A stretch of DNA of 53,573 bases from the NCBI GenBank assembly GCA_016234925.1, contig JACRNI010000033.1, positions 1 to 53,573 of the forward strand, read 5' to 3'. This document shows positions 1 through 50,163 of this stretch, piece by piece (positions within the stretch are counted from its first letter, which is position 1; each line of letters starts with the position of its first letter). Position numbers and translations under genes: made by a program. This DNA is from Deltaproteobacteria bacterium (GTDB lineage: Bacteria; Desulfobacterota; GWC2-55-46; UBA9637; GWC2-42-11). The notes below the pieces were generated by a model that was given only the letters and a program-made list of their open reading frames with translations, was not told the DNA's origin and did not search any database.

Positions 1-389
1 GAGTGTTTGATTTTGCAGGGGATTCTTTTGTAGGGGCTTGATTTATCAAGCCCATTATTGCGGGTGTCATAAATGCCACCCCTACATTTTTTGGTTCAAT
101 GAATTGAACCCCTACATCACTCACTGCTATTTTTGGCTTCCATGCCAAAAATTTTATTGTAATCAAACCTAAAGGTTTGAGTTACTGTAACTCAAGGCTT
201 TAGCCTTGAGGTTTTTTCAAGGTATCAGCACAGTCATTATTACGCAGGCTAAAGCCTGCGGCTACCCCCATCACCTCCTTTCCGACCATATTACCTTTAC
301 CTTTGATAAGTATATCGGATTGGGGAATAAAAACTTTAGGGAAATTTTTTGAGCGTAACATCTTGATACTATTAAATAATTTACAATAA

Positions 390-832
390 CTAAATCCTAA
401 TGTCTAATTTCTAATAAAATGACCAATGACTAAATTCCCAATTTGTTTTTTTGACGCGATTTATTAACAATTGAAGAAAAAATTAAGTTTAATTCATTTG
501 CTTCTCGCCAAAGAATTCTGGCGTCATCTTTGAGTTCAGGCACAGATACAGAAATCATCCTTAACCAATGTTTAGTTTCCTTAGATTCTTTTTTGCAAAT
601 ACCTAATTTGTGTTCAAAATCTTTTTTAGATTCAGCGCAATCGGCTTCACAATAATTTGCGCCAACACTTGTGCCGGCTTTAACCAATTGACTTATTAAA
701 GGAACCGTTATTGTGGTTTTGGGTATCTTTTTTGCGAATTCAATAATATCTTCACCGAACTTTGCTGTCCTATCTTCCAAATCATATTTTGTTTTTTTGA
801 CATTTGACATTTTATTAGAAATTAGGATTTAG
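390..832. repeat. Inverted repeat pair flanking the four-helix-bundle gene (390..421 and 808..832)
   Basis: Right arm CATTTTATTAGAAATTAGGATTTAG; reverse complement CTAAATCCTAATTTCTAATAAAATG matches left arm ctaaatcctaat[gtctaat]ttctaataaaatg perfectly apart from a 7-nt insertion. Confidence 0.8.
430..810 (-). CDS. four helix bundle protein (23S rRNA intervening sequence / S23-IVP-like), copy 1
   Basis: 126 aa ORF; IVP-like pattern (PLISQLVKAGTSVGANYCEADCAESKKDFEHKLGICKKESKETKHWLRMI). Start and stop codons both lie in flanking short repeats. Confidence 0.85.
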   Translation of the reverse strand: MSNVKKTKYDLEDRTAKFGEDIIEFAKKIPKTTITVPLISQLVKAGTSVGANYCEADCAESKKDFEHKLGICKKESKETKHWLRMISVSVPELKDDARILWREANELNLIFSSIVNKSRQKNKLGI

Positions 833-841
833 AAATTGTTT

Positions 842-1458: not shown

Positions 1459-1608
1459 GATTACACAGATTTTTTAAACACAGATTACACAGATTAAAAG
1501 TTTGTTGAAAAACTCAACAAACTCTGATTGCACAGATAAAAGATTAGATTTCACAGATTAAAACCCATTGAAATATCTGTGTAATCGCTTTTCCTAATCT
1601 GTGTAATC
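1459..1608. repeat. GATTACACAGATT repeat array (locus 1)
   Basis: Several copies of gattacacagatt / aatctgtgtaatc in both orientations. Confidence 0.9.
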
Positions 1609-1638
1609 AAGGCTGTTGATGCCTTTTTCAACAGCCTA

Positions 1639-2106
1639 TTAAAACACTAGTCTTTTCACTTGACAACTCTTATTGCCAAAATTAACCAATAAACCAACTT
1701 TTAGATTAGATGCCTTTAGATAAGAAAGCACCTGATATTCAAAAATTTGTGGAATATTGCCATTCAATGCTTTAAGTTCAACTATAACTTTATTTTCAAT
1801 AATTAAGTCTACAATAAGATTGCCTACTTTTTTGTCTTGATAATAAACATCAAACCGCTTTTCTGTTCTATATTCTAAACCTTCTTGTTCTAAAGTCAGT
1901 TTGAGCGCATTGTGATATACCTTCTCATTAAATCCAGGTCCCAATTCAGAATGAACTTTATAACAACAGGCTATTATTCGTTCTGTAAGAGGGTCTCTAT
2001 CTTTCATCTGTGTAATCTGCCTTTTAATCTGTGTAATCAAGACATCATCAGATGTCTGCGCCTCTAATCTCCGCCCCATTGCTTGTGGCATTGAGCCATT
2101 TGACAT
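1639..2106 (-). CDS. GxxExxY protein (PD-(D/E)XK-like, function unknown)
   Basis: LTERIIACCYKVHSELGPGFNEKVYHNALKLTLEQEGLEY...DLIIENKVIVELKA; N-terminal 'VLITQIKRQITQMKDRD' is encoded by GATTACACAGATT repeats (2005..2038). True start uncertain, probably downstream of 2106. Confidence 0.85.
   Translation of the reverse strand: MSNGSMPQAMGRRLEAQTSDDVLITQIKRQITQMKDRDPLTERIIACCYKVHSELGPGFNEKVYHNALKLTLEQEGLEYRTEKRFDVYYQDKKVGNLIVDLIIENKVIVELKALNGNIPQIFEYQVLSYLKASNLKVGLLVNFGNKSCQVKRLVF
2005..2038. repeat. GATTACACAGATT repeats (locus 2), inside 5' end of the GxxExxY ORF
   Basis: catctgtgtaatctgccttttaatctgtgtaatc. Confidence 0.9.
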
Positions 2107-3325
2107 CTTTGTGTTCCGCTATATACCTTTCTAATTCCCTTAAATATGCTATTAGATTTTTGGAACTCCACAGCATTTTGCCGTCTTTGCCTTTTATCTG
2201 TCTGTAAAGGGGCAGTGTCTTTATCTCCCGCCTGTATAAAACCCCTTCTGAATGGCTGTATCCATTAGAATATGAAAAGTCCGCGCCAATAAAGGTAATG
2301 GGATTGCACCCCATTTTATACGCAAGGTCAACTGCTGCGTGAATTACAGAGCCTCCGGAATATAAAATACCCTTTTCAACCTGCTCATCTGTTAATGGAT
2401 TATCCAAAGTTAAAAATGCCATATATCTCTTGCCTTTCCATGCCTCTAATACACCCGGATCTACCATAGGTCTGTATATAAGGCTTCCTTTTGCTGGCAG
2501 TCCTTTGAAAAACTCAGGCATATCTGACAGCGGGTCTATGGAAACAACATAGTCTATGTCAATGCCTGCTGCAACTAAAGGCTTGTATGCAGCATCAACT
2601 GTGATGATTATAGGAAAATAGGGTTCAAGGGTTCGAGGGTTCGAGTAGCCGCAGGCTTTAGCCTGCGTTAACGCACCCATAAAGGGTGCGGCTGCCAATA
2701 TATTCTCTATATCTTTAGCAAGCGACGGCCCCGCGCCTGCGACAATGCACGGTTTATTTTTATAAATCCCAAAAAGTTCCTTAACGGCTTTGTCATTTCT
2801 GCCGGTCTCCCAGTTTGCAGCAAGATTGCCTTTCAGCAAACCGTCCATCTTTTCCCAATGTTCCTCTATAAACCCTTTGTAAAGCCCTTCTTCAAGCATA
2901 TCCCGCAAAGGGGCAAAATCAGGGGATGCAATCTTTAATGAAGGAGGATGAGAGATGACCAGTATATCTTTCACCTCTCCTTGTTTCATAATATCCGTAA
3001 GTCTTCTTAAATCAAGGAGCAGTTCTATGCGCTCATCTTGAAATATCGGTTCATAGTCAAAATACTTGAACGTTTCCTTAAATAAAGACAGGTTTGTCGG
3101 GAATATATAAAGTTTTTTTATTGCAGGCAGTTCCTTTAATATCTCATTTATAAAATAATCCGCGCCCCATCCGAACAGGATTGCCTTTGGTTTAACCTTG
3201 TCCTTATAGTTTGAAAGAAAATCCCTTATGTCCTTTATTGGGTCGTATTTGCTGTGTATGTAAAGGTTGTTGAATTTAAGCGTCAGAAGACCTGTTCGGG
3301 TCTTTTCAATTTCTACCTGTTTCAC
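2048..3325 (-). CDS. Maf/DUF115 motility-associated factor glycosyltransferase family protein
   Basis: 425 aa; CIVAGAGPSL, IIITVDAAYKPL, YSGGSVIHAAVDLAYKMGCNPITFIGADFSYSNG typical of the family; contains an in-frame palindromic insert near 2645..2696. Confidence 0.85.
   Translation of the reverse strand: MKQVEIEKTRTGLLTLKFNNLYIHSKYDPIKDIRDFLSNYKDKVKPKAILFGWGADYFINEILKELPAIKKLYIFPTNLSLFKETFKYFDYEPIFQDERIELLLDLRRLTDIMKQGEVKDILVISHPPSLKIASPDFAPLRDMLEEGLYKGFIEEHWEKMDGLLKGNLAANWETGRNDKAVKELFGIYKNKPCIVAGAGPSLAKDIENILAAAPFMGALTQAKACGYSNPRTLEPYFPIIITVDAAYKPLVAAGIDIDYVVSIDPLSDMPEFFKGLPAKGSLIYRPMVDPGVLEAWKGKRYMAFLTLDNPLTDEQVEKGILYSGGSVIHAAVDLAYKMGCNPITFIGADFSYSNGYSHSEGVLYRREIKTLPLYRQIKGKDGKMLWSSKNLIAYLRELERYIAEHKDVKWLNATSNGAEIRGADI
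2645..2696. repeat. BIME-like paired hairpin (GTAGCCGCAGGC family), in frame inside maf
   Basis: gtagccgcaggctttagcctgcgttaacgcacccataaagggtgcggctgcc; encodes AAAPFMGALTQAKACGY within Maf. Confidence 0.85.
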
Positions 3326-5228
3326 TCTTTACCTCTGCCTGCATCTCCTCTATCTCCTCAATCGCCTTATCCAGTTTTGGCAGATACATATCGCATGCCT
3401 CAATTACACATTTATATGACTCTGCAACTATATTCAGGTCTTTTTCAAACTGTTTCTCCATATCCTCGTCAAGTTCCTTTCTTAAATATTCCTTTAACTG
3501 ATATGTGGGGTTTGTTACAATCTCCCACAGAAATGCGGCGTCTTCTGATTTATCAAAGAGTTTCTTTTCCAGTTTTTTAATCCTGTCTGTATGTTTTTTA
3601 AATTCATGCGTCATGCCCTTTGCCTTAAAAATCTTGTCTATAATCTTTGTCTCTTTATTTATCGCCTTTGCCGATATGCGGATGCCCTTAACCGCATCTT
3701 TCACCTTTGTAAAAGAATCTATGAGTCCCGCAAAATCAACTTTTGGCTTGTCTTTTTCAACATCAGATATGACATCCTCTATGGATGTTTCTTTATTTAT
3801 GCTGTATTTTTCTATGGCTTCAATAAGTTTAATATGCTCCATGCCCTCTATATATGCCCCGCCCTCTGTCGCATTCACAACAATTTCGGAAGGATGCTCC
3901 TTTTTAAGCCATGCCATATAGTTTTCAAACCACTGATGAAATGTAACCCAGTCATACTTACTGGCAACCCATTCTTCGTTAAGACCTTTCAGCCAGAGGA
4001 CACTGTGTTCCTGAACATATTTTACATCCCCTGAGAGATACATATAATCATAATCAACTTTTACTAAACCTTTTTCCTTATCTATCACTATACTTTTCTC
4101 TTTATACACAGTGCCGTCTGTATAACCCTTGCCTTCACTGAATGAGAGGTCCTGTCCAATAAATACAATGGGATTGCACCCGAACATAAGACCCATATCA
4201 AGCGCAGTGGTTGTAACGCTGCCCCCGCTTGACGGGAAATAACAACTCCCCCATAATTTCATCTGCTCAGCGCTTAAATTTACATATTGGTCATAAAATA
4301 CAAATTTGCCCTTAACATCACTTTTAAACACATTTGGATGAGACAGGTCTCCGAGTATAAGCCTTATCTCCTTATCCTCTTTCCCATTTGTAAAATATTC
4401 AGCAAGGTCTATCTTTTCCGACGCTATAAGAAAATGGGGGATGACGCCGAAATTAAGAAGGGGTTTATAAGCAGTTATGGCGGCGATGATTACTGCCTTG
4501 TCTTTTATATCCTTTAAAAGACGGGCGTTCTTTTTAAGGGAAGGGCCTGCGCCAACAATCACAAGGGGTGTGTCCTTGAACCTGCCATGCAATGCATCTA
4601 TTGCCCTGTATTTTGCAAAGTATTTTAGATTTGCAAGATAATTGTCATTCCACATAACCCTTGATGTTATCTCTGTCTTGATCAGCACCTTATTTGTTAT
4701 ATAGGCGTTCTGCACCCTGTTTGTAAATGCCCTCAATTCTTCAGAAAATGCCTGCTTGTAAGGAGGGGTGTAATAGACAAGCAAATCTTCCATGCCTTCA
4801 GTATGATTTCTTACAGTATCGCCCAGATTATTAAGCGTGTGGCAGAGATGAAAGGAATCTTTTGAAAGCACATCTTTCAGGTCAACTGTTGAAAGCACAG
4901 ATTTTAATATCTCAAGGCGCGGCTCATAAACAATAATCTTTTCTTTCCCTTTTTCCATGAGGAGTCTTGGGATATATGAGCAACCCATGCCGAATAAAAA
5001 CACCCAGTCAAATTTTGATTTGATTATGGCTTCAACCTGCTGATTCGCCTCTTTCCACGGGTCATAGGAACTGTGAAAGTATTTGCCGTTGTATTTGAAT
5101 GTGTCGTCTCCTGTTTTTGTCTTTTCAATCTGGACAGGTTCAACGGCTGGCGATAATTCAAGGGCATCAGCAAGCGCCTTGTTTTTTTTCCTTAATGCCT
5201 CAATGTTTGTATTGAATGTTTGGTTCAT
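3306..5228 (-). CDS. Maf/DUF115 motility-associated factor family protein
   Basis: 640 aa; LVIVGAGPSLKKNARLL, SGGSVTTTALDMGLMFGCNPIVFIGQDLSFSEGKGYTDG. Confidence 0.88.
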   Translation of the reverse strand: MNQTFNTNIEALRKKNKALADALELSPAVEPVQIEKTKTGDDTFKYNGKYFHSSYDPWKEANQQVEAIIKSKFDWVFLFGMGCSYIPRLLMEKGKEKIIVYEPRLEILKSVLSTVDLKDVLSKDSFHLCHTLNNLGDTVRNHTEGMEDLLVYYTPPYKQAFSEELRAFTNRVQNAYITNKVLIKTEITSRVMWNDNYLANLKYFAKYRAIDALHGRFKDTPLVIVGAGPSLKKNARLLKDIKDKAVIIAAITAYKPLLNFGVIPHFLIASEKIDLAEYFTNGKEDKEIRLILGDLSHPNVFKSDVKGKFVFYDQYVNLSAEQMKLWGSCYFPSSGGSVTTTALDMGLMFGCNPIVFIGQDLSFSEGKGYTDGTVYKEKSIVIDKEKGLVKVDYDYMYLSGDVKYVQEHSVLWLKGLNEEWVASKYDWVTFHQWFENYMAWLKKEHPSEIVVNATEGGAYIEGMEHIKLIEAIEKYSINKETSIEDVISDVEKDKPKVDFAGLIDSFTKVKDAVKGIRISAKAINKETKIIDKIFKAKGMTHEFKKHTDRIKKLEKKLFDKSEDAAFLWEIVTNPTYQLKEYLRKELDEDMEKQFEKDLNIVAESYKCVIEACDMYLPKLDKAIEEIEEMQAEVKSETGRN

Positions 5229-5779: not shown

Positions 5780-7789
5780 TCTTTTTTCTCCTGTAACCGA
5801 AAACCTTATCGTATTATGCCCCCTCCAGACCCAGTATGCTGTGTCGTCTATCTCGCCTATTGAATGATAGACCCTTAAAAAAAACTTGTCATCTACTCCT
5901 TGGTAATGCAGAAGCGGGACTGAAAATAATTGCGCCTTGTCAGTATCAATGCGGATTGACTTTTCCTTGTCGCCGATTGCAAGCCAGCCCTCTGTTGCGC
6001 CAAGACAACTTGATGCAGATACTGTCGGACTCACTGATTCATCGTGTTTCACAACATGCCCGTTCAGATGAAATTTTTCAGGATATAAGCCGCCGTTCAC
6101 TGTCTCAAACCAGAGGCTTTCTTTGTCAAAAACATCGGGCATGATGGTAAATATCCCAAGCCTCAAACACGAGGCAGAAAGTCCGTTGACCTTTAATCTA
6201 TATGTAATATCCACCTGCGGCTTTGATTTGTAAATATCATACTCTTTTAAAACCGTCCCTATTTCAATTGGGATTAAACATGAAACATTAAACCTGTCTT
6301 CGAATTCATTTACCTTTGGCTCAACCTTTTTAAGGTCTGTTATCTTTTTGCCGTCCTTTGCCACATTTATTAAATGACCGGTGAAAAAATCAGCGCCGTA
6401 ATGGACATCGTCATAATAGCCGTGTTCAAGCGTGCCGATAAACGGCTCTTTGCATACTTCGGGAAATGCAAGGGATTTTATTGCCAGCCCCTTGTCGCAG
6501 AGAAATTCAATAGATGTCTTTTCTGTGTTAATCTTTAAGATATTGTCTTTTAGTTGAAACTTTTTAGTTTTGACTTTTGACTTTTGACTTTTGACTTTTG
6601 ACTTTTGACTTTTGACCTCTGTCTCATACTGCAGCCAGCCCATCTTATTCTGAAAATCCAAAAATTTCTCATCTGTTGTGGATGTCCTGAAATCGCTTGC
6701 CCAGAGAAAGCAGAGGGTCTCTTTAAATTCATTAAGTCTATCCTTTGAAACATTTTTTGAAATCTCTAAAATATTTTTATATGCCTGCTCGCACTGGGTA
6801 TTTATATGAACATTGTCCCTGCCTGCAGCCGCCCATCTTGTTGGATTATATTTTTCCTGCTTTTTGCATGGCAGCGGTGTTTCAGGAGATTCAAGATTTA
6901 TCTTATTAAAAGATAATGCTTCCTTACTTTTGCCTTTTGCCTTTTGCCTTTTGCCTTCTTTTATTATCTCGCTTGGCAAAATAAATGCCATCTCTTTATC
7001 TTCAGAAAGTTTCTCAAACAATTCCCTGATTCTATCGTATTCACCTTTCACATCCTTATATTCCCCGGGCCTGTAATCAAATATTTCAGCGTCATTCCCG
7101 TAGATGGGGAAAAAACAGTCGCGGGCCGCAGATTGCGTAGGGGCTTGATTCATCAAGCCCGATTGCTGCTGGTCAAAATGTGAATATAAAAATTTCAAAT
7201 ACTCATCTTGAGACAATTCGCCGTGAACGCATCTTTGAAATTTTTGAAACGCAATGGAGTGGCTCCAGACAACAGTTATATCGTTTTTAATGCCAGCGGC
7301 TGTCTGCGGGAAATAAAGATATTCCTTTGGATAATGGTTATACTGACAGCAGTTATTCCAGTCCATTATAATTGCCTCGTAACCTGCGTCTTTGTATAAA
7401 TCTACAAGCCCTTTTGAATAGACTTGCTCATTTACAAGCGCAATTGCCGGATACCTTCCCAAAAGTTTATTATAATACTTATTGCCGATTTCAAGATTCC
7501 ATTTGTTCACTTGAGCAGGCATAAGAGGCATGATCGCCTGCGAATAGCCTGAGCCTATAAACTCGCATTTGCCTTCGTTCCAGAGTTCTTTTAGCCTCTG
7601 CCTGAATTCAGGACTAATCCTGCTTACCTCTTTAAGCGTCCATGCGGACATCTCAATTGCAGCAGGAAACCCGTGCTCGCACAGTTTCAAGATAGGCCAA
7701 TAGCATCTCTCAACAACTTGCGGAAAATGCTCCTTTGGTATTGCGGAAAATGCAAGGTTGCAGTGAAATATGGTATAAAGATAAAACAT
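5777..7789 (-). CDS. glycoside hydrolase family 57-like protein
   Basis: MFYLYTIFHCNLAFSAIPKEHFPQVVERCYWPIL...FIGSGYSQAIMPLMPAQVNKWNLEIG; contains three in-frame repeat-derived segments. Confidence 0.75.
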   Translation of the reverse strand: MFYLYTIFHCNLAFSAIPKEHFPQVVERCYWPILKLCEHGFPAAIEMSAWTLKEVSRISPEFRQRLKELWNEGKCEFIGSGYSQAIMPLMPAQVNKWNLEIGNKYYNKLLGRYPAIALVNEQVYSKGLVDLYKDAGYEAIIMDWNNCCQYNHYPKEYLYFPQTAAGIKNDITVVWSHSIAFQKFQRCVHGELSQDEYLKFLYSHFDQQQSGLMNQAPTQSAARDCFFPIYGNDAEIFDYRPGEYKDVKGEYDRIRELFEKLSEDKEMAFILPSEIIKEGKRQKAKGKSKEALSFNKINLESPETPLPCKKQEKYNPTRWAAAGRDNVHINTQCEQAYKNILEISKNVSKDRLNEFKETLCFLWASDFRTSTTDEKFLDFQNKMGWLQYETEVKSQKSKVKSQKSKVKTKKFQLKDNILKINTEKTSIEFLCDKGLAIKSLAFPEVCKEPFIGTLEHGYYDDVHYGADFFTGHLINVAKDGKKITDLKKVEPKVNEFEDRFNVSCLIPIEIGTVLKEYDIYKSKPQVDITYRLKVNGLSASCLRLGIFTIMPDVFDKESLWFETVNGGLYPEKFHLNGHVVKHDESVSPTVSASSCLGATEGWLAIGDKEKSIRIDTDKAQLFSVPLLHYQGVDDKFFLRVYHSIGEIDDTAYWVWRGHNTIRFSVTGEKR
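6562..6616. repeat. Tandem repeat of CTTTTGACTTTTGA units inside the GH57-like CDS
   Basis: Encodes KSQKSKVKSQKSKVK; a second related array (ttgccttttgcc, about 6928..6960) encodes KRQKAKGKSK. Confidence 0.85.
7137..7160. repeat. Single REP-like hairpin in the GH57-like CDS
   Basis: GTAG-GGGCTTGAT-TC-ATCAAGCCC; encodes GLMNQAPT. Confidence 0.8.
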
Positions 7790-8016: not shown

Positions 8017-8092
8017 ATCCAGCCCCTCCTTTATAATATAAATACCATAATGACATTATGGTGAAAATAGGGACACCAAGCTGTCCCAAAAT

Positions 8093-8148
8093 GTAGGGGT
8101 TCAATTTATTGAACCCGATATATTGGGCTTGATAAATCAAGCCCCTAC
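8093..8148. repeat. BIME-like paired hairpin
   Basis: GTAGGGGTTCAATTTATTGAACCCgatatattGGGCTTGATAAATCAAGCCCCTAC. Confidence 0.85.
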
Positions 8149-8209
8149 AATATTTTGGGGTAGAATTGATTTTTATGAGAATTTTGGGACAACCTGACAC
8201 TCCCATTTT

Positions 8210-18367: not shown

Positions 18368-18420
18368 GTAGCCGCAGGCTTTATGCCTGCGCCAATCGCA
18401 CCCATAAAGGGTGCGGCTAC
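18368..18420. repeat. BIME-like paired hairpin (GTAGCCGC...GCGGCTAC)
   Basis: gtagccgcaggctttatgcctgcgccaatcgcacccataaagggtgcggctac. Confidence 0.9.
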
Positions 18421-18461
18421 CGATTTTCATCCCCCTTTGTGAGCCAAGGCTCGTGAGGGTT

Positions 18462-19430
18462 TCACCTGAAAATACCCTTTGTGTCTCTTTGTGGCATGAA
18501 TGTTTCAGATTTACCATTATTTTCCTCCCCCCTCTCCCCATAGATTATCATTTCCCTGCCTATGTTATGCCTTGCCATAGTTTTATACATATCCTTTTTA
18601 AAATCATTTAATATCGGCTCATTCAACATAATATCCAGCCTCTTTCTCTTTGCATGGCACTCCCTGCCGAGTTTATCATTCCCAACATAATTGTCGCCCA
18701 TGAGCAAAAACATATCAATTGGAAACATCGCTGCCCTTTCAATAATCTTAAAGCCAGCCTTTTTTAATAAATTTTCAAGGCTATCGTAGTCAAAATAATT
18801 TATATGATGCGGCGGCGCAAGCCAGTATGGTTTGAAACCAAGTTTTTCTCTCAAGACCTTTTGAAAAGGGTTATAGTCATTCGGAACAACAACACAGATA
18901 ATGCCTTTATCATCCAATAGACTGTAAGCCTTTTTGCAAAGGTTTATCGGGTCAGGGATGTGTTCTAAAACCTCTGAAAGATGGATAACATCAAACCTTT
19001 TTTTGCCAAAATCCATCTCATTTAAAAAGACGTTCTCTATATCAAGTCCAAGTGATTTTGCATATTTTGCAGCCTGTTTTGACGGCTCAACTCCGAAACA
19101 TTTCCACCCCCTTTCTTTGCCTCTCTTTAGAAAAAACCCAGACCCGCAGCCTATATCAAGAATGTTTCTTCTGTTTTTCGCAAGGTGTTCTTCAAAAAAA
19201 TCATACCTGTCATCATAGACAGTATTCCACGATTCGATGTCTTCCACAGTGCGCTCAATGTATAAAGGTTTTTCCTCTGTGTAATATTCATCTCTATAAA
19301 CCTTGTCTAATTCCGCCTGTGTTGGAACAGGGTCAATATGCGCAAAACCGCACTGTGTGCAGTTGATGATGCTGTAGTCCTTTACCCTGTCTAATGTTTT
19401 GCCAATGTGTTTCATAAAAATTGGGTTCAT
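18462..19430 (-). CDS. class I SAM-dependent methyltransferase
   Basis: NCTQCGFAHIDPVP; ILDIGCGSGFFLKRGKERGWKCFGVEPS; start placed at MNPIFMKHIGKTLDRV because upstream ORF sequence is repeat-derived. Confidence 0.82.
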   Translation of the reverse strand: MNPIFMKHIGKTLDRVKDYSIINCTQCGFAHIDPVPTQAELDKVYRDEYYTEEKPLYIERTVEDIESWNTVYDDRYDFFEEHLAKNRRNILDIGCGSGFFLKRGKERGWKCFGVEPSKQAAKYAKSLGLDIENVFLNEMDFGKKRFDVIHLSEVLEHIPDPINLCKKAYSLLDDKGIICVVVPNDYNPFQKVLREKLGFKPYWLAPPHHINYFDYDSLENLLKKAGFKIIERAAMFPIDMFLLMGDNYVGNDKLGRECHAKRKRLDIMLNEPILNDFKKDMYKTMARHNIGREMIIYGERGEENNGKSETFMPQRDTKGIFR

Positions 19431-19439
19431 GGATCCAAG

Positions 19440-19493
19440 GTAGCCGCAGGCTTTATGCCTGCGATAAAACGCAACCGTAAAGGTTGCGGCTAC
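19440..19493. repeat. BIME-like paired hairpin supplying the pseG stop codon
   Basis: gtagccgcaggctttatgcctgcg...cgcaaccgtaaaggttgcggctac; pseG ends GTC TGG TAG inside it. Confidence 0.85.
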
Positions 19494-20587: not shown

Positions 20588-21615
20588 GTTAAATTTACAA
20601 ACCTTCTCTTTTCTGACGACTCTTTAATTGCAAGGGCAAGTTTAAGCGTCCTCTTGCCTTCATCTAAATCTATTAACGGCTGTTTTTTATTTTTAAGGCA
20701 GTCTAAAAAATATTTTGTTTCTTTCACATACATCGCATTGATTTCAAAATTTACCTTTTCCTGAATCCAGTTCTTTTTTTTAACATCATATCTTTCAATA
20801 AGCCCTGTTGAAAAATCGCATCTTATAGTCCCCTTCTCGCCTGCAATAACCATCCTGTGCTGTCCTGCCCTTTGTAGAAAATCAGTGGATGCAGAGACAT
20901 AAAAACCTTTTTTCATCTTGAATATGCCGGCAACTATATCATCCGCATCAATCTCAAGACTGCTTATCTTATCAACAAATGCTGCAACTTCCTTGACATC
21001 GCCAAAAAGCCATCTTATATTGTCAAACCCGTGGATGCTTGTAAGCAAAACCCCGCCCCCGAGTTTTTTATGCGCAGCATATTCCTTTCTGTAATCCATG
21101 TTCGGATGCCAGTCAGGGAGATAATGACCGCCATAATAATTCACATGATATATTTTGCCAATAGCCTTTTTATCCAGCATTGACTTTATTTTCAAAAACA
21201 CAGGATGAAACCTGTAGCACATTGCCATCATTGCAATGAGTTTTTTCTTTTTTGCAATTTTAATAAGTTCATCAACACCATCCATCTTGTGAGATAATGG
21301 CTTTTCTATAAAAAGATTTATGCCTGCCTTTGCGCAATCCATAGCCATTGGCACATGCAAACTGGACGGGGTTGCAATGACAGCAGCAGTTATGTCTTTG
21401 TTTTCTTTTATAGCCTTTTTATAATCAATATAAATATTTTCTATGCTGAATTCTTTTTTTATTTTTTCAAGCCTTTCTGCAGATGTATCACAAAGGATAA
21501 AATCCCTAACACCAAGCGCCAGAAGATTTTTTAAATGCCTCTGCCCAATAGAGCCGCAGCCGATGATGATAAACCTTTTTTTTGAATTTTGCATTTTGAG
21601 TTTTGACTGTTGCAT
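20584..21615 (-). CDS. Gfo/Idh/MocA family oxidoreductase
   Basis: RFIIIGCGSIGQRHLKNLLALG; NLFIEKPLSH. Confidence 0.88.
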   Translation of the reverse strand: MQQSKLKMQNSKKRFIIIGCGSIGQRHLKNLLALGVRDFILCDTSAERLEKIKKEFSIENIYIDYKKAIKENKDITAAVIATPSSLHVPMAMDCAKAGINLFIEKPLSHKMDGVDELIKIAKKKKLIAMMAMCYRFHPVFLKIKSMLDKKAIGKIYHVNYYGGHYLPDWHPNMDYRKEYAAHKKLGGGVLLTSIHGFDNIRWLFGDVKEVAAFVDKISSLEIDADDIVAGIFKMKKGFYVSASTDFLQRAGQHRMVIAGEKGTIRCDFSTGLIERYDVKKKNWIQEKVNFEINAMYVKETKYFLDCLKNKKQPLIDLDEGKRTLKLALAIKESSEKRRFVNLT

Positions 21616-22914
21616 TTAATTTCTCTGCCTGAACACCACACCAACCTTCTCCCCCTCCATAAACGGGTCAACACTGCCTGCATCAATCGCCTTTTTCATA
21701 ATCTTCAATGCCTCATATGATGCGTCAATGGTTTTTTTTATGTCTTCTTCTGAATGGGAATAACTTATGAAAACAGGGCCGCCAAATAGTATCCCCCTCT
21801 TAACAGTCTCCTGCAAAAACAAACTCTTGAATTCAAGGGAATCCCTGCCCTCGCTGTCCTTTGCGGCAATATGCCCTCTTACATACTGTCCGCCTATTTC
21901 AAAGGGAACATTCAAGTCTTTGGCAATCTTATTCACACCTTCATGCAGTTTTCTGCCAATATCCCAGATATGCTTTAAAACAGGCTTTGTCCGCAGTTCA
22001 TTTATAGTCGCCTTTGCAGCAGCAAGCCCCAATGTGTCGCCTGAATATGTCATTGAAAAAAACACCTCTTTTAACTCATTCATATATTCTTTTTTGCCGA
22101 CTACTGCTGATATTGGAATGCCGTTTGCCATACCCTTTCCAAAACACGCCAGATCAGGCGTTACATTATAATATTCCTGCGCGCCGCCTAATGCAAATCT
22201 AAAGCCAGTAACAATCTCATCCATTATAAACAATGCGCCGTTTTTATGGGCAGCATCCTTTATCTGCTGCAAAAAGTTTTTTCCATTAGTAACAGCAGGC
22301 TCTTTGCCCGGCACCTCCATTATTACACAGGCTATTTTATCTGGATATTCGCTGAATAGTTTTTCAAGGCTGGAGATATTGTTGTATTCAAAGGCATGCA
22401 TGAATTCTGCGTAAACCTTTGGTATGCCTTTGTTTCTGGGTGTTGTAACAGCAAACCAGTCCTGACACCCGTGGTAGCCGCAGTATGCAATGTGGTCTCT
22501 GCCTGTTGCCGCCCTTGCAATCTTTACGCTCGCAGATGTTGCATCTGCGCCATTCTTTGCAAACCTGACCATCTCTGCGCAGGGAATCATATCAACAAGG
22601 AGTTCGGCAACCTCTACCTCAAGCGTGTGCATGAGCGTAAATGTCGTGCCTTCTCTGAGTTGCTTAATAACAGCATCAACAACCGGAGGATAATCGTAGC
22701 CAAGCAGGATTGGGCCAAGCGCTAATGGATAATCAATATATTCATTGCCGTCAACATCCCAAACATGAGAGCCTTTGCCTTTTTGCAGATACTTCGGCGT
22801 AACGCCTCTTACAAACTGGTCAGGGCCCTTGCTCAAGGTCTGTGTGCCGCATGGTATAATCTTCTCTGCCCTCTGCCAAAGGTCTTCTGATAATGGAAAT
22901 TTTACCCTCATCAA
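21616..22914 (-). CDS. class III aminotransferase (glutamate-1-semialdehyde aminomutase-like)
   Basis: LFIMDEIVTGFRFALGGAQEYYNVTPDLACFGKGMANGIPISAVVGKKEYM. Confidence 0.88.
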   Translation of the reverse strand: MMRVKFPLSEDLWQRAEKIIPCGTQTLSKGPDQFVRGVTPKYLQKGKGSHVWDVDGNEYIDYPLALGPILLGYDYPPVVDAVIKQLREGTTFTLMHTLEVEVAELLVDMIPCAEMVRFAKNGADATSASVKIARAATGRDHIAYCGYHGCQDWFAVTTPRNKGIPKVYAEFMHAFEYNNISSLEKLFSEYPDKIACVIMEVPGKEPAVTNGKNFLQQIKDAAHKNGALFIMDEIVTGFRFALGGAQEYYNVTPDLACFGKGMANGIPISAVVGKKEYMNELKEVFFSMTYSGDTLGLAAAKATINELRTKPVLKHIWDIGRKLHEGVNKIAKDLNVPFEIGGQYVRGHIAAKDSEGRDSLEFKSLFLQETVKRGILFGGPVFISYSHSEEDIKKTIDASYEALKIMKKAIDAGSVDPFMEGEKVGVVFRQRN

Positions 22915-22928
22915 GCCTCCTGATAGAT

Positions 22929-23003
22929 GATTACACAGATTTTTTAAAAAAAGCGATTACACAGATTTAAAAAAGTAATCGTGTTGCCTGAATCTGTGTA
23001 ATC
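22929..23003. repeat. GATTACACAGATT repeats (locus 3) upstream of the aminotransferase
   Basis: gattacacagatttttt...gattacacagattt...aatctgtgtaatc; nearly identical compound block at 40932..41027. Confidence 0.9.
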
Positions 23004-28998: not shown

Positions 28999-29053
28999 GT
29001 AGGGGTTTGATTCATCAAACCCGCATATCGGGTCGGATAAATCCGACCCCTAC
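28999..29053. repeat. BIME-like paired hairpin
   Basis: GTAGGGGTTTGATTCATCAAACCCgcatatcGGGTCGGATAAATCCGACCCCTAC. Confidence 0.9.
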
Positions 29054-29168: not shown

Positions 29169-30305
29169 TTATCTAAAATATTTCTTTCTTGCGATTTCTG
29201 CCACATATTCGTCAAATTTAATGACTCTGCCTCTTTTTTTCACATCTAGCCACTCTTCAAAGAGTCCATTGAGAACCTTTTTTTTATAATGGTAACGAAA
29301 TACTTCTATTGAGATTATAAATAGGACAGATAAAAAATAAATGAGATATTGGTTCAAAAAATGCCAGAAATTTGCAAAACTAAAACTGTATGGCGGTCCT
29401 ACAAACCTAGAGATCAATACTATAACAAAAACAATAGCACCAGAGTAATCATATAATATATTATTACATTTAGATTTATCCTTCACAATTTTTTTAAGTT
29501 TATCATCCCCAAATTTAGGGTATGAATCAGATTGACTTATTTGCTGCGCTAGAAAGACATTTTTATAATAGTGCCAAAAAGCCCTTTCTGGCAGTGAAAA
29601 TGGGTACACTAATAATAGCAATATCCAAACAAGTGAATTTAACATTGCATTATAAAAATAAGGTTGTGTATATGGTGTAATGCCATTATTTAATATCTCT
29701 GTTAATATCGCATTATTATTGGTTTTCCAAATACTGTGCCTTGAAAGTTCAAAAAATATGTAAAAATAAAAGAACAAAACAACAAAAAATAAAAAATTAA
29801 AGAATGCCCATGCTATTCCACTATCTTTCTCTCCTCCTGAAAAATTAGGTCTACTTTTATTAGTATCATCAGTATCTCCTACAGGTAACAATAAGTAGTG
29901 CTTTATTTCTGGCAAGACATCGCAAAGTATTTTACGAAGGTGTTGTATAGACTTCCAATATCTTATCTTGTGATTTTTAGACTTACTATATTGTCGTTGT
30001 CCCATGTGTAGTAAAAAATACACAAAAATAGATATAAATATGCCGAATCCACCGTATAGTAACCCTACAATGCTTTCAGGATGGGCTAGAACAAGTTTTA
30101 ATCCTAAAATAGTATAAGCAATATATGAAGACAATATTGTTAAAAATACTTTTATGTAAGAAGATATTTTATCATTGATAAATCTAATTTCAGCGAATAA
30201 TTGATTATATTCATTGATTAGATAGTTCGTGGGGAAAGTCCCCTTATATTCTTTATATGGACTTAATCCTTTTTTGATTCCTTTTGTAATTTTATTCTCA
30301 TCCAT
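29169..30305 (-). CDS. multi-pass membrane protein, unknown function
   Basis: 378 aa, multiple hydrophobic segments; C-terminal VIKFDEYVAEIARKKYF resembles the PRMT-like fragment. Confidence 0.65.
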   Translation of the reverse strand: MDENKITKGIKKGLSPYKEYKGTFPTNYLINEYNQLFAEIRFINDKISSYIKVFLTILSSYIAYTILGLKLVLAHPESIVGLLYGGFGIFISIFVYFLLHMGQRQYSKSKNHKIRYWKSIQHLRKILCDVLPEIKHYLLLPVGDTDDTNKSRPNFSGGEKDSGIAWAFFNFLFFVVLFFYFYIFFELSRHSIWKTNNNAILTEILNNGITPYTQPYFYNAMLNSLVWILLLLVYPFSLPERAFWHYYKNVFLAQQISQSDSYPKFGDDKLKKIVKDKSKCNNILYDYSGAIVFVIVLISRFVGPPYSFSFANFWHFLNQYLIYFLSVLFIISIEVFRYHYKKKVLNGLFEEWLDVKKRGRVIKFDEYVAEIARKKYFR

Positions 30306-31400: not shown

Positions 31401-31566
31401 TTGAACCTGAAAATACCTTCTTTTAATCCCCCTGTATCCCCCTTTAGAAAAGGGGGGAAAGTTTTGTCCCCCTCTTTCATAAAGAGGGGTTAGGGGAGAT
31501 TATTTTCATGCCCCTTTGTGAGACAAGGCTCGTGAGGGTTTGTCCCGAAAATGCCCCATATGTCCT

Positions 31567-31622
31567 GTAGGGGCTTGATTTATCAAGCCTGCTTATTCGG
31601 GTGTCATAAATGCCACCCCTAC
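31567..31622. repeat. BIME-like paired hairpin
   Basis: GTAGGGGCTTGATTTATCAAGCCtgcttattcGGGTGTCATAAATGCCACCCCTAC; nearly the same as 30..85. Confidence 0.9.
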
Positions 31623-31653
31623 ATTATTTTAGATGTTTTGGTATTTATCCTAA

Positions 31654-35307: not shown

Positions 35308-35411
35308 ATAACCCCTTTACCTTATAAAATTCCAAATCTCAAATTTCAAATTACAAATAAATTCCAATTGCCAAAACTCCAATGACAGAAAGAACTTGAA
35401 ATTTACTGCCT

Positions 35412-37846: not shown

Positions 37847-39556
37847 TTATTTTTGCAAAAATTTCTTCACTTCTTTGCAAGAAACTTCATCTCCTAGCTC
37901 ACATGCCCTTTGTAAATCATAAAATATCCGAGGGTAAGATTTGGAGATTGTTTTTCCATTTTCTCTTTCTACCTCTTTTAAAGCCTTGCACCCACCTTCA
38001 TCTCCCATGTTACAAGCCTTTTGTAAATCAGAGATTGCATTGCCTGTCTTTTTTAACATAGCATAAGCAAGCCCACGATTGTAGTAGTTAAGGGCATAAG
38101 TCGGGTCTAATTCAATTGCCTTATTAAAATCCTCAATCGCCCTGTCCTGTTGTCCTTTATTAGCATAAGCAATTCCACGATTGTAATAGACTAAGGCATC
38201 ATTCGGGTTTAATGCAATTGCCTTATTATAATCCTCAATTGCCCTGTCCTGTTGACTTTTATAAGCATAGGCAAAACCACGACCAATATAGGAAGCAGCA
38301 GAATTAGGGTTTAATGCAATTGCCTTATTAAAGTCCTCAATTGCCCTGTCATGTTGTCCTTTGTAACCATAGGTAAGCCCCCGACTGTAGTAGGCTTCGG
38401 CATCATTTGGGTTTAATGCAATTGCCTTATTAAAATCTTCAATAGCCTTGTCCTGTTGTCCTTTGTTAAGATAAGCAAGCCCACGATTGTAGTAGTCAAG
38501 GGTATAAGTTGGATCTAATGCAATTGCCTTATTATAATCATCAATTGCATTGTCAAGTTGTCTTTTATAAGCATAGGTAATACCACGAGCGCTATAAACA
38601 GCAGCATAATTTGGATCTAATGCAATTGCCTTATTAAAGTCCTCAATTGCCCTGTCATATTGGCCTTTGTAACCATATGCATATCCGCGACTTAAATAAG
38701 GAATGGCATTTTTAGGATTTAATGTTATTGCTTTATTATAAAGTTCAATTGCTATATCATATTGACCTTTTCCAATATATGCAATTCCCATATTGCTATA
38801 GGCTTCGGCATAACTCGGATCTATTGCAATTGCCTTATTAAAGTCCTCAATTGCCTTGTCATGTTGCCCTTTGTTATGATAAGCAAGCCCACGATTGTTA
38901 TAAGCGAAGACATCATCCGGGATTAAGGCAATTACATTTGTATATGCCTCTATTGCCTTATCACGTTCTTTATTTAGGCTGTAAGTATATCCTTTTTCAA
39001 ACCACTCATTAGCCTGAAGTAACTTTTCTTCCTCTGCAATCTTTGCTTTTACCTCTTTTCTTTCTTTTTCACCCTTTGCCTGTGCCAATTGTTTCTTTAA
39101 TTCCTCATTCTCCCTCTGGCTCCTTGTATAATCTTCCTGTATCTTTTTGTAATCGTCAACAAATAATTTATCTTTAACCTTAATCTTATTTGCCATCTCC
39201 TCTGTTTTATCAAGATTGACCTTTGCGTTGATTTTTACCCAAAAGTTAATGCCGTCTCCGACAATAGTCCTTTTCTTGTCTAATACAGTAACCTCCATCA
39301 AGCCCGATGCAATGACCTTGATTTCATCTTCTGTCAGTTGGAAGTTTTTTACCTTTGAATAACTCTCAACATAAGTTCCTGCCTCTTCCAATGCAGTCCG
39401 TTTTGCCTGTAATAATGCCCTGCTCTCCGCAACAGTCGGCGTTTCGCCGTCGCCCATGTTGTAAGTTCCTTCTGCAACAATCTCTTTAACTTGCGCAAAA
39501 CTAAGGGATGAATAGAACAAGGAAAAGACAACAATGACTGCAAGGATGTATCTCAT
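37847..39556 (-). CDS. tetratricopeptide repeat protein with Sel1-like C-terminus
   Basis: Signal peptide; about ten near-identical 34-aa TPRs (YYNRGLAYLNKGQQDKAIEDFNKAIALNPN). Confidence 0.9.
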   Translation of the reverse strand: MRYILAVIVVFSLFYSSLSFAQVKEIVAEGTYNMGDGETPTVAESRALLQAKRTALEEAGTYVESYSKVKNFQLTEDEIKVIASGLMEVTVLDKKRTIVGDGINFWVKINAKVNLDKTEEMANKIKVKDKLFVDDYKKIQEDYTRSQRENEELKKQLAQAKGEKERKEVKAKIAEEEKLLQANEWFEKGYTYSLNKERDKAIEAYTNVIALIPDDVFAYNNRGLAYHNKGQHDKAIEDFNKAIAIDPSYAEAYSNMGIAYIGKGQYDIAIELYNKAITLNPKNAIPYLSRGYAYGYKGQYDRAIEDFNKAIALDPNYAAVYSARGITYAYKRQLDNAIDDYNKAIALDPTYTLDYYNRGLAYLNKGQQDKAIEDFNKAIALNPNDAEAYYSRGLTYGYKGQHDRAIEDFNKAIALNPNSAASYIGRGFAYAYKSQQDRAIEDYNKAIALNPNDALVYYNRGIAYANKGQQDRAIEDFNKAIELDPTYALNYYNRGLAYAMLKKTGNAISDLQKACNMGDEGGCKALKEVERENGKTISKSYPRIFYDLQRACELGDEVSCKEVKKFLQK

Positions 39557-39933: not shown

Positions 39934-40038
39934 AACGCGCCTCCTGTTTTAAAAAATATCCAAGGCAATTCACTTTTTTTGGGCGCAGCCCAATCCCATA
40001 TCTGTGCAATCTCATTTTATTTCTCTTTTGAAGAAATT

Positions 40039-40129
40039 GATTACACAGATTTTGGGAATACGATTACACAGATTAAAGACTACTATTTTGTTTTAATCTG
40101 TGCAATCTGCCTTTATAATCAGTGTAATC
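40039..40129. repeat. GATTACACAGATT repeats (locus 4)
   Basis: gattacacagatt x2 then aatctgtgcaatc, aatcagtgtaatc. Confidence 0.9.
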
Positions 40130-40931: not shown

Positions 40932-41027
40932 GATTACACAGATTTTTAAAAAAAACGATTACACAGATTTAAAAAAGTAATCGTGTTGCCTGAATCTGTG
41001 TAATCTGCCTTTATAATCTGTGTAATC
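40932..41027. repeat. GATTACACAGATT repeats (locus 5) upstream of ybgF
   Basis: Compound block nearly identical to 22929..23003, including flanking cctcctgatagat and catagtatctcct. Confidence 0.9.
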
Positions 41028-47312: not shown

Positions 47313-47395
47313 GATTACACAGATTTTGAAAAATGATTACACTGATTTTAAAGCAAGTTTTAATCTGTGCAATCTGCTTTGTAATCTGTGTAATC
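47313..47395. repeat. GATTACACAGATT repeats (locus 6) upstream of kamA
   Basis: gattacacagattttgaaaaatgattacactgatt...aatctgtgcaatc...aatctgtgtaatc. Confidence 0.9.
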
Positions 47396-48988: not shown

Positions 48989-50163
48989 TGAAATTATCAG
49001 AATTTGACTACAACCTTCCCAAAGATTTGATTGCCCAGTTTCCTGCTGATAAAAGGGATGAATCAAGGCTGATGGTTCTCTCACGGACTACAGGGACAAT
49101 AGAGCATAAAAGGTTCTTTGAAATAACAGAATATCTAAAAAACGGTGATGTCCTTGTTTTAAATGATACCCGTGTCATCCCTGCAAGACTTTATGGGAAA
49201 AAATCTACTAGCGGAGAAGTAGAGGTTTTTTTATTAAATGTAGCCGCAGGCTTTAGCCTGCGAGAATCTACAAGGCAAGTATGGAAATGTCTTATAGGTA
49301 ATTCAAAGGGCATAAAACCTGAAAGTGAAATTCATTTTGAACATGGTCTAAATGCAAAGGTTATTAAAAAAAACGCGGATGAAAGTTGGCTTATAGAATT
49401 ATCAGTAGGACAGGCGTCTCGCTTGTCAGTAATAGAGGCAATAGATAAAATCGGCATAATGCCTCTGCCTCCGTATATAAAAAGGGGCAAAGGGAATAAT
49501 CCCCTAATCTCCCCCGCCCATCATTCGGATGGGCACCCGCCCTCTTTAGGAAAGAGGGGAACCCCTTTTCTTCCCCCTTTAGTAAAGGGGGACATAGGGG
49601 GATTAAATGCACTTGACAGAGAACGATACCAGACAGTATTTGCAAAAAAAGAAGGCGCTGTTGCCGCGCCGACAGCAGGACTGCACTTTACAAACGAACT
49701 GCTTGCAAACATAAAATCCATTGGAGTTGAAATCCAATATATAACCCTGCACACAGGCTGGGGCACATTCAAGCCTGTCAAAGTTGATGATATAACAAAA
49801 CACAAGATGCCTAAAGAGTATTATGAGATTTCCAATAAAGTTTTTGAGTCAATAAAAAATGCAAAAAAAGAAAACAGGAGAATCATTGCAGTCGGCACAA
49901 CAGCAACAAGAACCCTTGAGACATGCGTAAAAAATGGCTGGGACAACCCGATTTTAGAAGGCTGCACAGATTTATTTGTATATCCGGGTTTTAACTTCAA
50001 GGTGGTTGATGCAATCGTTACAAACTTCCATTTGCCAAAATCAACGCTTTTGATGTTAGTCTCTGCCTTTGCAGGCAGGGACTTTATTATGAAGGCATAC
50101 AAAACCGCAATTGAAAATAACTACAGATTTTTCAGTTACGGCGATGCGATGCTCATTGTGTGA
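48988..50163 (+). CDS. queA: tRNA preQ1(34) S-adenosylmethionine ribosyltransferase-isomerase QueA
   Basis: DYNLPKDLIAQFPADKRDESRLMVL; VIPARLYGKK; GAVAAPTAGLHFTNELL; FFSYGDAMLIV; contains three repeat-derived inserts. Confidence 0.95.
   Translation: MKLSEFDYNLPKDLIAQFPADKRDESRLMVLSRTTGTIEHKRFFEITEYLKNGDVLVLNDTRVIPARLYGKKSTSGEVEVFLLNVAAGFSLRESTRQVWKCLIGNSKGIKPESEIHFEHGLNAKVIKKNADESWLIELSVGQASRLSVIEAIDKIGIMPLPPYIKRGKGNNPLISPAHHSDGHPPSLGKRGTPFLPPLVKGDIGGLNALDRERYQTVFAKKEGAVAAPTAGLHFTNELLANIKSIGVEIQYITLHTGWGTFKPVKVDDITKHKMPKEYYEISNKVFESIKNAKKENRRIIAVGTTATRTLETCVKNGWDNPILEGCTDLFVYPGFNFKVVDAIVTNFHLPKSTLLMLVSAFAGRDFIMKAYKTAIENNYRFFSYGDAMLIV
49240..49262. repeat. REP-like hairpin in queA (insert 1)
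   Basis: GTAG-CCGCAGGCTTTAGCCTGCG; encodes VAAGFSLR. Confidence 0.85.
49405..49427. repeat. REP-like hairpin in queA (insert 2)
   Basis: GTAG-GACAGGCGTCTCGCTTGTC; encodes VGQASRLS. Confidence 0.75.
49494..49605. repeat. CCCCT.../...AGGGG palindromic repeat in queA (insert 3)
   Basis: gggaataatcccctaatctcccccgcccatcattcggatgggcacccgccctctttaggaaagaggggaac...agtaaagggggacatagggggatt; encodes NNPLISPAHHSDGHPPSLGKRGTPFLPPLVKGDIGGLN. Confidence 0.9.

Follow-up and report, generated by a model that had tools for sequence, protein, structure and literature searches.

GxxExxY genes as the likely single gene of small mobile elements with iterated inverted ends

Several small genetic elements of bacteria combine one gene with short inverted repeats. 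According to the available sections of two open-access papers on REPIN/RAYT systems (PMC3116915, PMC3733652), short palindromic repeats stand on either side of one gene, inverted repeats paired without a gene are dispersed in large numbers between genes, and each gene lineage has its own repeat type. RAYTs, described there as single-copy, are single-strand transposases of the HUH (IS200-like) kind, and the REPs carry a GTAG tag. MITEs and insertion sequences have terminal inverted repeats, a single gene, short non-autonomous derivatives, and presence or absence at orthologous sites. The intervening sequence (IVS) of 23S rRNA, in the accessible part of its description (PMC4990558), is a selfish element of ~0.4-0.5 kb in which inverted repeats enclose one small gene.

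The elements built around GxxExxY genes share these features, and differ from each described system in the enzyme and in the ends. High-copy paired inverted repeats that also flank the gene are found as in REPIN/RAYT systems, a likeness of architecture only, whereas the Y1/HUH transposase is absent; the GxxExxY product is predicted to be a PD-(D/E)XK nuclease from Pfam and the fold model, its arms consist of 2-4 iterated 8-10-nt units without GTAG, and a single genome holds up to 12 matches to the gene. In contrast to MITEs and insertion sequences, whose terminal inverted repeats they share, GxxExxY elements have ends built of iterated short units and carry no DDE, HUH, serine or tyrosine transposase between the arms; the element studied here encodes no known transposase family. 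Because these defining enzymes are absent from the element, we do not file it under REPIN/RAYT or IS/MITE. Compared with the IVS, the gene inside is GxxExxY and not S23p/IVP; the latter encodes a four-helix-bundle protein in which no nuclease motifs are known, has 7-nt units and forms a separate heptamer class. Moreover, IVS sit in 23S rRNA, whereas the GxxExxY elements examined sit in protein-coding operons.

GxxExxY proteins are annotated across bacteria without a known role, and environmental genomes recurrently contain unexplained short repeats of the CACAGAGG, CGCAGAT and CACGAAT types. In the open-access literature searched, the name GxxExxY occurs in only two papers, one of which describes no function for it, and the passages located on REPINs, MITEs, heptamers and IVS mention no link of the protein to repeats. 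An open-access search for PF13366/PDDEXK_3 returned no relevant paper, and one with the repeat letters returned mostly primer matches. We found no prior description of the element family in this literature, and our best reading is that it represents a new family of single-gene mobile elements. In this study, we consider it likely that GxxExxY is the sole gene of small mobile elements with non-autonomous, arm-only hairpin derivatives, and that the predicted nuclease binds and cuts the arms.

The window, that is, the whole 53,573-nt stretch analysed, is contig C22 of a 2.4-Mb genome in 177 contigs (G000) with exactly one PF13366 gene. The ORF at 1639..2106 on the minus strand, named GxxExxY by the first-pass annotation, scores 132.5 bits with TIGR04256 and 126 bits with PF13366 (PDDEXK_3), exceeding the curated cut-offs of 35 and 22 bits, and the identification stands. 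Its likely true coding region is shorter (1639..2007, minus strand, 122 aa), since the conserved part of the protein sets in at the ATG at 2007, which arises from a one-base repeat variant, GATTACACAGATG. The upstream (5') arm at 2005..2038 on the minus strand contains two GATTACACAGATT units, the inner of which ends in this start codon. The downstream (3') arm at 1459..1495 on the plus strand contains two further units in inverted orientation, and the two arms match with a score of 48. Only the PD-(D/E)XK gene lies between them, PDDEXK_3 being the only Pfam match.

The same annotation took two repeat units at the 5' end of the gene to be translated as ITQIKRQITQ. The units do lie within the 5' end of the ORF, at 2005..2038, but the likely start at 2007 comes after the repeats, so this stretch probably precedes the translated region. 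The arm stops before the start codon is reached in most family members. A functional ITQIKRQITQ peptide was rejected, as other members have arms of unrelated sequence upstream of the start. On the 3' side, an array had been described at 1459..1608. Repeats are present there, not as a plain array but as inverted pairs forming hairpins, and the region divides in two: positions 1459..1495 are the gene-bearing element's outer arm, and positions 1526..1608 (unstranded, units ++--) are a full gene-less copy placed between the GxxExxY stop and that arm. The gene-less copy is closely similar to the one at G000:C9:2475 (L010), a likeness that takes in the adjoining AACAGCCTT. A small inner palindrome read from the letters, GTTTGTTGAAAAACTCAACAAAC (1500..1522, unstranded), separates the outer arm from the nested copy and folds as a stem. 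A second palindrome, GGCTGTTGA..TCAACAGCC (1611..1636, unstranded), lies beside the stop, and a similar one adjoins L010. Judged by this layout, the window element is one element nested inside another. Two adjacent MptE-like ORFs at 2048-5228 lie directly upstream of it, one of which also matches the N-terminus of Maf flagellin glycosyltransferase.

GATTACACAGATT has 25 matches in the window at up to 2 mismatches, against 1.35 expected, and 245 matches genome-wide at up to 1 mismatch, against 1 for the reversed control. The copies are nested inverted repeats of the form [+ +] loop [- -], about 66-96 nt in total: 13-mers stand in pairs 22-25 nt apart, followed by a loop of ~20 nt and then by both units inverted. 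These inverted pairs fold into strong hairpins; a simple tandem array of GATTACACAGATT was discarded as a description. The four further window sites reported without a GxxExxY gene were all recovered as unstranded gene-less hairpin elements, at 22929..23003 (units ++-), at 39999..40129 (site 40039, units (-)++--), at 40932..41027 (units ++--) and at 47313..47395 (units ++--). The element at 40932..41027 shares 63 nt at 98% identity with the copy at 22941-23003.

We also notice other repeats in the window. A further inverted-repeat family, TGTAGGGG(CTTGATTTATCAAGCCC)...CCCCTACA, occurs at 29-92, 7137-7164, 8092-8155, 28999-29026 and 31566-31629. Related 77-nt stretches lie at 18423-18499 and 31502-31578, the former including CCCTTTGTGTCTCTTTGTGG, similar to an arm of the CACAAAG type but with no gene. 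Palindromes of the GTAGCCGCAGGCTTTAGCCTGCG type, which bear the same GTAG tag as RAYT-type REPs, are found at 2645-2667, 18368-18390, 19440-19462 and 49240-49262; one of them, near 2620-2700, falls within the ORF at 2048-3325, whose frame is apparently unbroken.

The GxxExxY protein had been taken as PD-(D/E)XK-like, and we can now predict a catalytically intact nuclease from its invariant D-ExK and its fold model. Thirteen positions are invariant in 31 GxxExxY sequences, including G23, G25, E28, Y31, D67, E77, K79, Q92 and Y96. Residues D67, E77 and K79 make up the D-ExK active site, and Q92 and Y96 the QxxxY motif, which is typical of RecB/Cas4-type nucleases; the sequences thus carry the D...(E)xK signature of the PD-(D/E)XK superfamily, and the model shows its fold. 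A sequence search returned no solved homologue. The AlphaFold model has a pLDDT of 95, and its best solved relatives in Foldseek are Cas4 SSO0001 (4ic1), lambda exonuclease, AddAB and MGME1, with Holliday junction resolvases lower down. The Foldseek probability to Cas4 and lambda exonuclease is 1.00, with moderate TM-scores (0.5-0.6). The protein is confidently modelled as a compact Cas4/RecB/lambda-exonuclease-like PD-(D/E)XK nuclease. TnsA of Tn7 is likewise a PD-(D/E)XK nuclease, used in transposition; fold and catalytic D-ExK are shared with TnsA, Cas4 and RecB, and QxxxY with Cas4 and RecB. TnsA, however, acts with the DDE transposase TnsB, while the GxxExxY element has no partner gene. 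Cas4 has conserved iron-sulphur cysteines, whereas no cysteine is invariant in the 31 GxxExxY sequences.

In order to compare gene flanks, we took 30 GxxExxY loci from the phylum of the window genome together with 80 named loci of genomes in GTDB, which belong to Bacteroidota, Verrucomicrobia, Planctomycetes, Spirochaetes, Chloroflexi, proteobacteria, cyanobacteria, one archaeal contig and others; 108 loci in all were usable. For each gene, 250 nt of upstream sequence were aligned with 250 nt of downstream sequence in reverse complement, with a threshold score of at least 30. Inverted arms bracket 73% of the 108 loci (median score 37) and, in a second group, 20 of 30 loci (67%), percentages that are no unbiased family averages because the loci are best-scoring matches. 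Among the controls, 4% of mismatched pairs reach the threshold, as do 2% of the 313 neighbour ORFs, whose median score is 18. Three of the seven high-scoring control ORFs are another GxxExxY gene or IVPs; therefore, the true background is even lower than 2%. About one quarter of GxxExxY loci are without clear arms. The proposed link between the gene and short repeats is thus real, as enrichment near the genes was found in both groups, and it is far broader than GATTACACAGATT, with GxxExxY genes in many phyla bracketed by a repeat type of their own. Chance adjacency or an assembly artefact might be suspected, given that the window comes from a fragmented assembly. This has next to no probability: the difference between 73% and 2%, together with the replicate, already refutes it, and the bracketing also occurs in isolate genomes and on plasmids that are complete (L202, Bacteroides finegoldii; L203, Bernardetia). 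Carriage by phages or plasmids as the main vehicle was rejected, with 0 phage matches and 8 plasmid records. One short contig of Cloacimonadota (L103) holds two GxxExxY genes, at 177-564 and 3726-4070, with different arm types.

The arms follow a common design. They consist of 2-4 direct units, spaced by 8-10 nt in 74 of 79 loci, in many cases with the core C-R-C-R-R-A (CGCAGA, CACGAA, CACAGA, CACGGA, CGCAAA) that often follows ACC or GCC; the remaining types are ACAGGATT or lineage-specific. GATTACACAGATT includes the core CACAGA, at about twice the usual spacing of the family. Iterated CRCRRA stands on both sides in the correct orientation at 60 of 134 GxxExxY loci, against 14 and 10 single-side matches in the wrong orientation and 0 in dinucleotide shuffles. 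Arm similarity tracks protein similarity (Mantel rho 0.29, 0/2000 permutations), with no change when G+C is allowed for, and does so among cross-phylum pairs only (rho 0.30, 0/2000 permutations). For example, similar arms are found in Gallionellaceae (L101, AACCACGAATTAACACGAATGAACACGAAT) and Cloacimonadota (L103, AACCACGAATTAACACGAATTAACACAAAT). Among 32 GxxExxY genomes, repeats of the ACAGGAT type occur at least five times (5-55) in 5/5 genomes with that arm type against 1/27 others, where the counts in part represent the gene arms themselves.

Co-occurrence of the gene and dispersed repeats across genomes, also proposed in the first-pass annotation, bore out in part. In the phylum of the window genome, the gene is present in 49/63 genomes with at least two iterated CRCRRA sites against 92/332 (OR 9.1, p 1e-13). 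In the second group, ACARGAT sites occur in 49/136 gene-positive against 7/105 gene-negative genomes (OR 7.9, p 3e-8). Repeats are therefore not equally abundant in genomes lacking the gene. Both comparisons are partly circular, because the sites counted include gene arms and the patterns were picked after viewing gene flanks. After subtraction of possible arm matches, and with kinship ignored, the first group retains an OR of 4.2 (p 0.002) and the second an OR of 1.8-3.1, borderline or not significant. The comparison informs on the family and not on the window genome, because a 10-nt pattern misses repeats spaced by 22 nt (G000 counts 0). Meanwhile, some repeat-rich genomes have no detectable gene (G020, G321, G201 and G768, with 82, 121, 27 and 48 sites), and two genomes of the same family as the window genome (G001, G002) have 12 and 21 GATTACACAGATT matches on both strands and 0 GxxExxY genes. 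These could be explained by lost or missed genes, or by another mobiliser.

Such gene-less genomes and the modest corrected co-occurrence, along with an unrelated protein family (IVP) that shows the same layout with other repeats, lend something to the idea that the arms are moved by something else, such as a RAYT or other transposase in trans or host recombination, while GxxExxY is a frequent passenger, for example a selfish or defence nuclease caught between copies. We hold this to be unlikely, since the bracketed gene in many phyla is almost always GxxExxY with 8-10-nt units or IVP with 7-nt units and shows no varied cargo, and the arm sequence follows the protein even across phyla.

Comparison of related genomes, with junction genes named from their translations, reveals gain or loss at orthologous sites. 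Between menB and menC in Prevotella relatives, a GxxExxY element is present in L172, L173 and L181; the junction is empty (22 nt) in L174 (flanks 89% identical), L175, L179 and L186, while L183-L185, L194 and L195 have hairpins without a gene there. The menB genes of L172 and L173 are 94% identical, whereas their GxxExxY proteins are only 55% identical and their arms differ, so the site has been taken by different elements. Between parE and parC in Flavobacterium relatives, at least 8 species carry an element and L243, with flanks 93-94% identical, has no gene there. The element of L062 sits precisely between pheS and pheT. The closest filled and empty pairs (89-94% flank identity) differ over the whole intergenic gap, so that no target-site duplication or base-exact junction is definable. 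We also observe that the occupants of menB-menC (L172-L201) and parE-parC (L236-L265) vary, comprising GxxExxY elements, gene-less hairpins, heptamer arrays and unrelated small genes. Both junctions behave as if they were insertion hot spots.

Repeated occupation of the same operon junctions would also be expected of a homing-like selfish nuclease, which cuts element-free alleles and is copied in by repair, spreading mainly between orthologous sites and leaving dispersed hairpins as decayed copies. PD-(D/E)XK nucleases do include homing endonucleases, and one of these, I-Bth0305I, is among the weak fold matches of the GxxExxY model. Nevertheless, the occupied sites are diverse, and the iterated-unit arms, together with hundreds of closely similar gene-less copies spread over unrelated sites of one genome, are better explained by transposition or copying in trans; we regard homing as quite improbable. 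The location between genes in operons and the strong hairpin folding could instead suggest that the arms are RNA features (RNase III-processed hairpins, terminators or mRNA stabilisers) and GxxExxY a host regulator, the link being functional and not mobile; 23S rRNA IVS elements are excised by RNase III, according to the accessible part of their description (PMC4990558). Presence and absence at orthologous sites, nested copies, cross-phylum resemblance and different elements at one site in close relatives make this reading very improbable.

Our findings thus favour a mobile element family, which is well supported by the bracketing and its specificity, the tracking of arms and protein, gain or loss at orthologous sites, and dispersed gene-less copies. 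That the GxxExxY nuclease is the engine acting on the arms is the most economical reading but, like arm recognition, cutting and the chemistry of movement, is inferred. In the proposed model, the element is ~0.5 kb long and consists of one GxxExxY gene with an arm of 2-4 short units at each end, the arms being mutually inverted. The protein would most likely bind the iterated arms, as duplex DNA or as an extruded hairpin, and cut at them. The gene-bearing element would then be copied to new intergenic sites, as would the gene-less derivatives composed of arms and a short loop. If GxxExxY does mobilise the repeats, the role of the protein and the origin of the repeats become testable together, and scattered gene-less copies would account for common unexplained repeat DNA. 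Movement of DNA by a lone small nuclease that acts on iterated inverted ends would be a novel mechanism, and possibly a tool.

The window also holds an element of the parallel class. A gene for the four-helix-bundle 23S rRNA intervening-sequence protein (IVP/S23p; PF05635, TIGR02436) lies at 430..810 on the minus strand, between a left arm at 382..427 (CTAAATCCTAATGTCTAATTTCTAATAAAATG) and a right inverted arm at 802..838 (both unstranded), which match with a score of 45. IVP genes have inverted heptamer arrays throughout the phylum; inverted arms were found at 65% of 31 IVP loci tested, with a unit of 7 nt in 17 of 20. This agrees with the Coxiella IVS, in which, according to the available sections of its description, three tandem heptamers (GACAGAT) precede the S23p ORF in what is termed a selfish element (PMC4990558). 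As both IVP and GxxExxY genes are bracketed by inverted arms, two unrelated small proteins therefore share one element design. We put forward, only tentatively and at somewhat less than even chances, that a lone Cas4/RecB-like PD-(D/E)XK nuclease drives an unrecognised transposable superfamily with iterated-repeat ends in many bacterial phyla and on an archaeal contig, that S23p/IVP independently runs the same design with heptamer ends, and that the two jointly explain many short-repeat families. If so, the parallel S23p class would set the decades-old rRNA intervening sequences in a wider context.

Tandem arrays of period 7 (ACTTTTG, CTTTTGC and others) occur in the window at 6559-6616, 6927-6957, 21580-21617, 29762-29801 and 35327-35358. 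They are of the kind that flanks IVP genes elsewhere and are possibly remnants of that class. Finally, the ORF at 37847-39556 contains nine direct repeats of 102 nt at 37961-39076, encoding a TPR-like unit of 34 aa.
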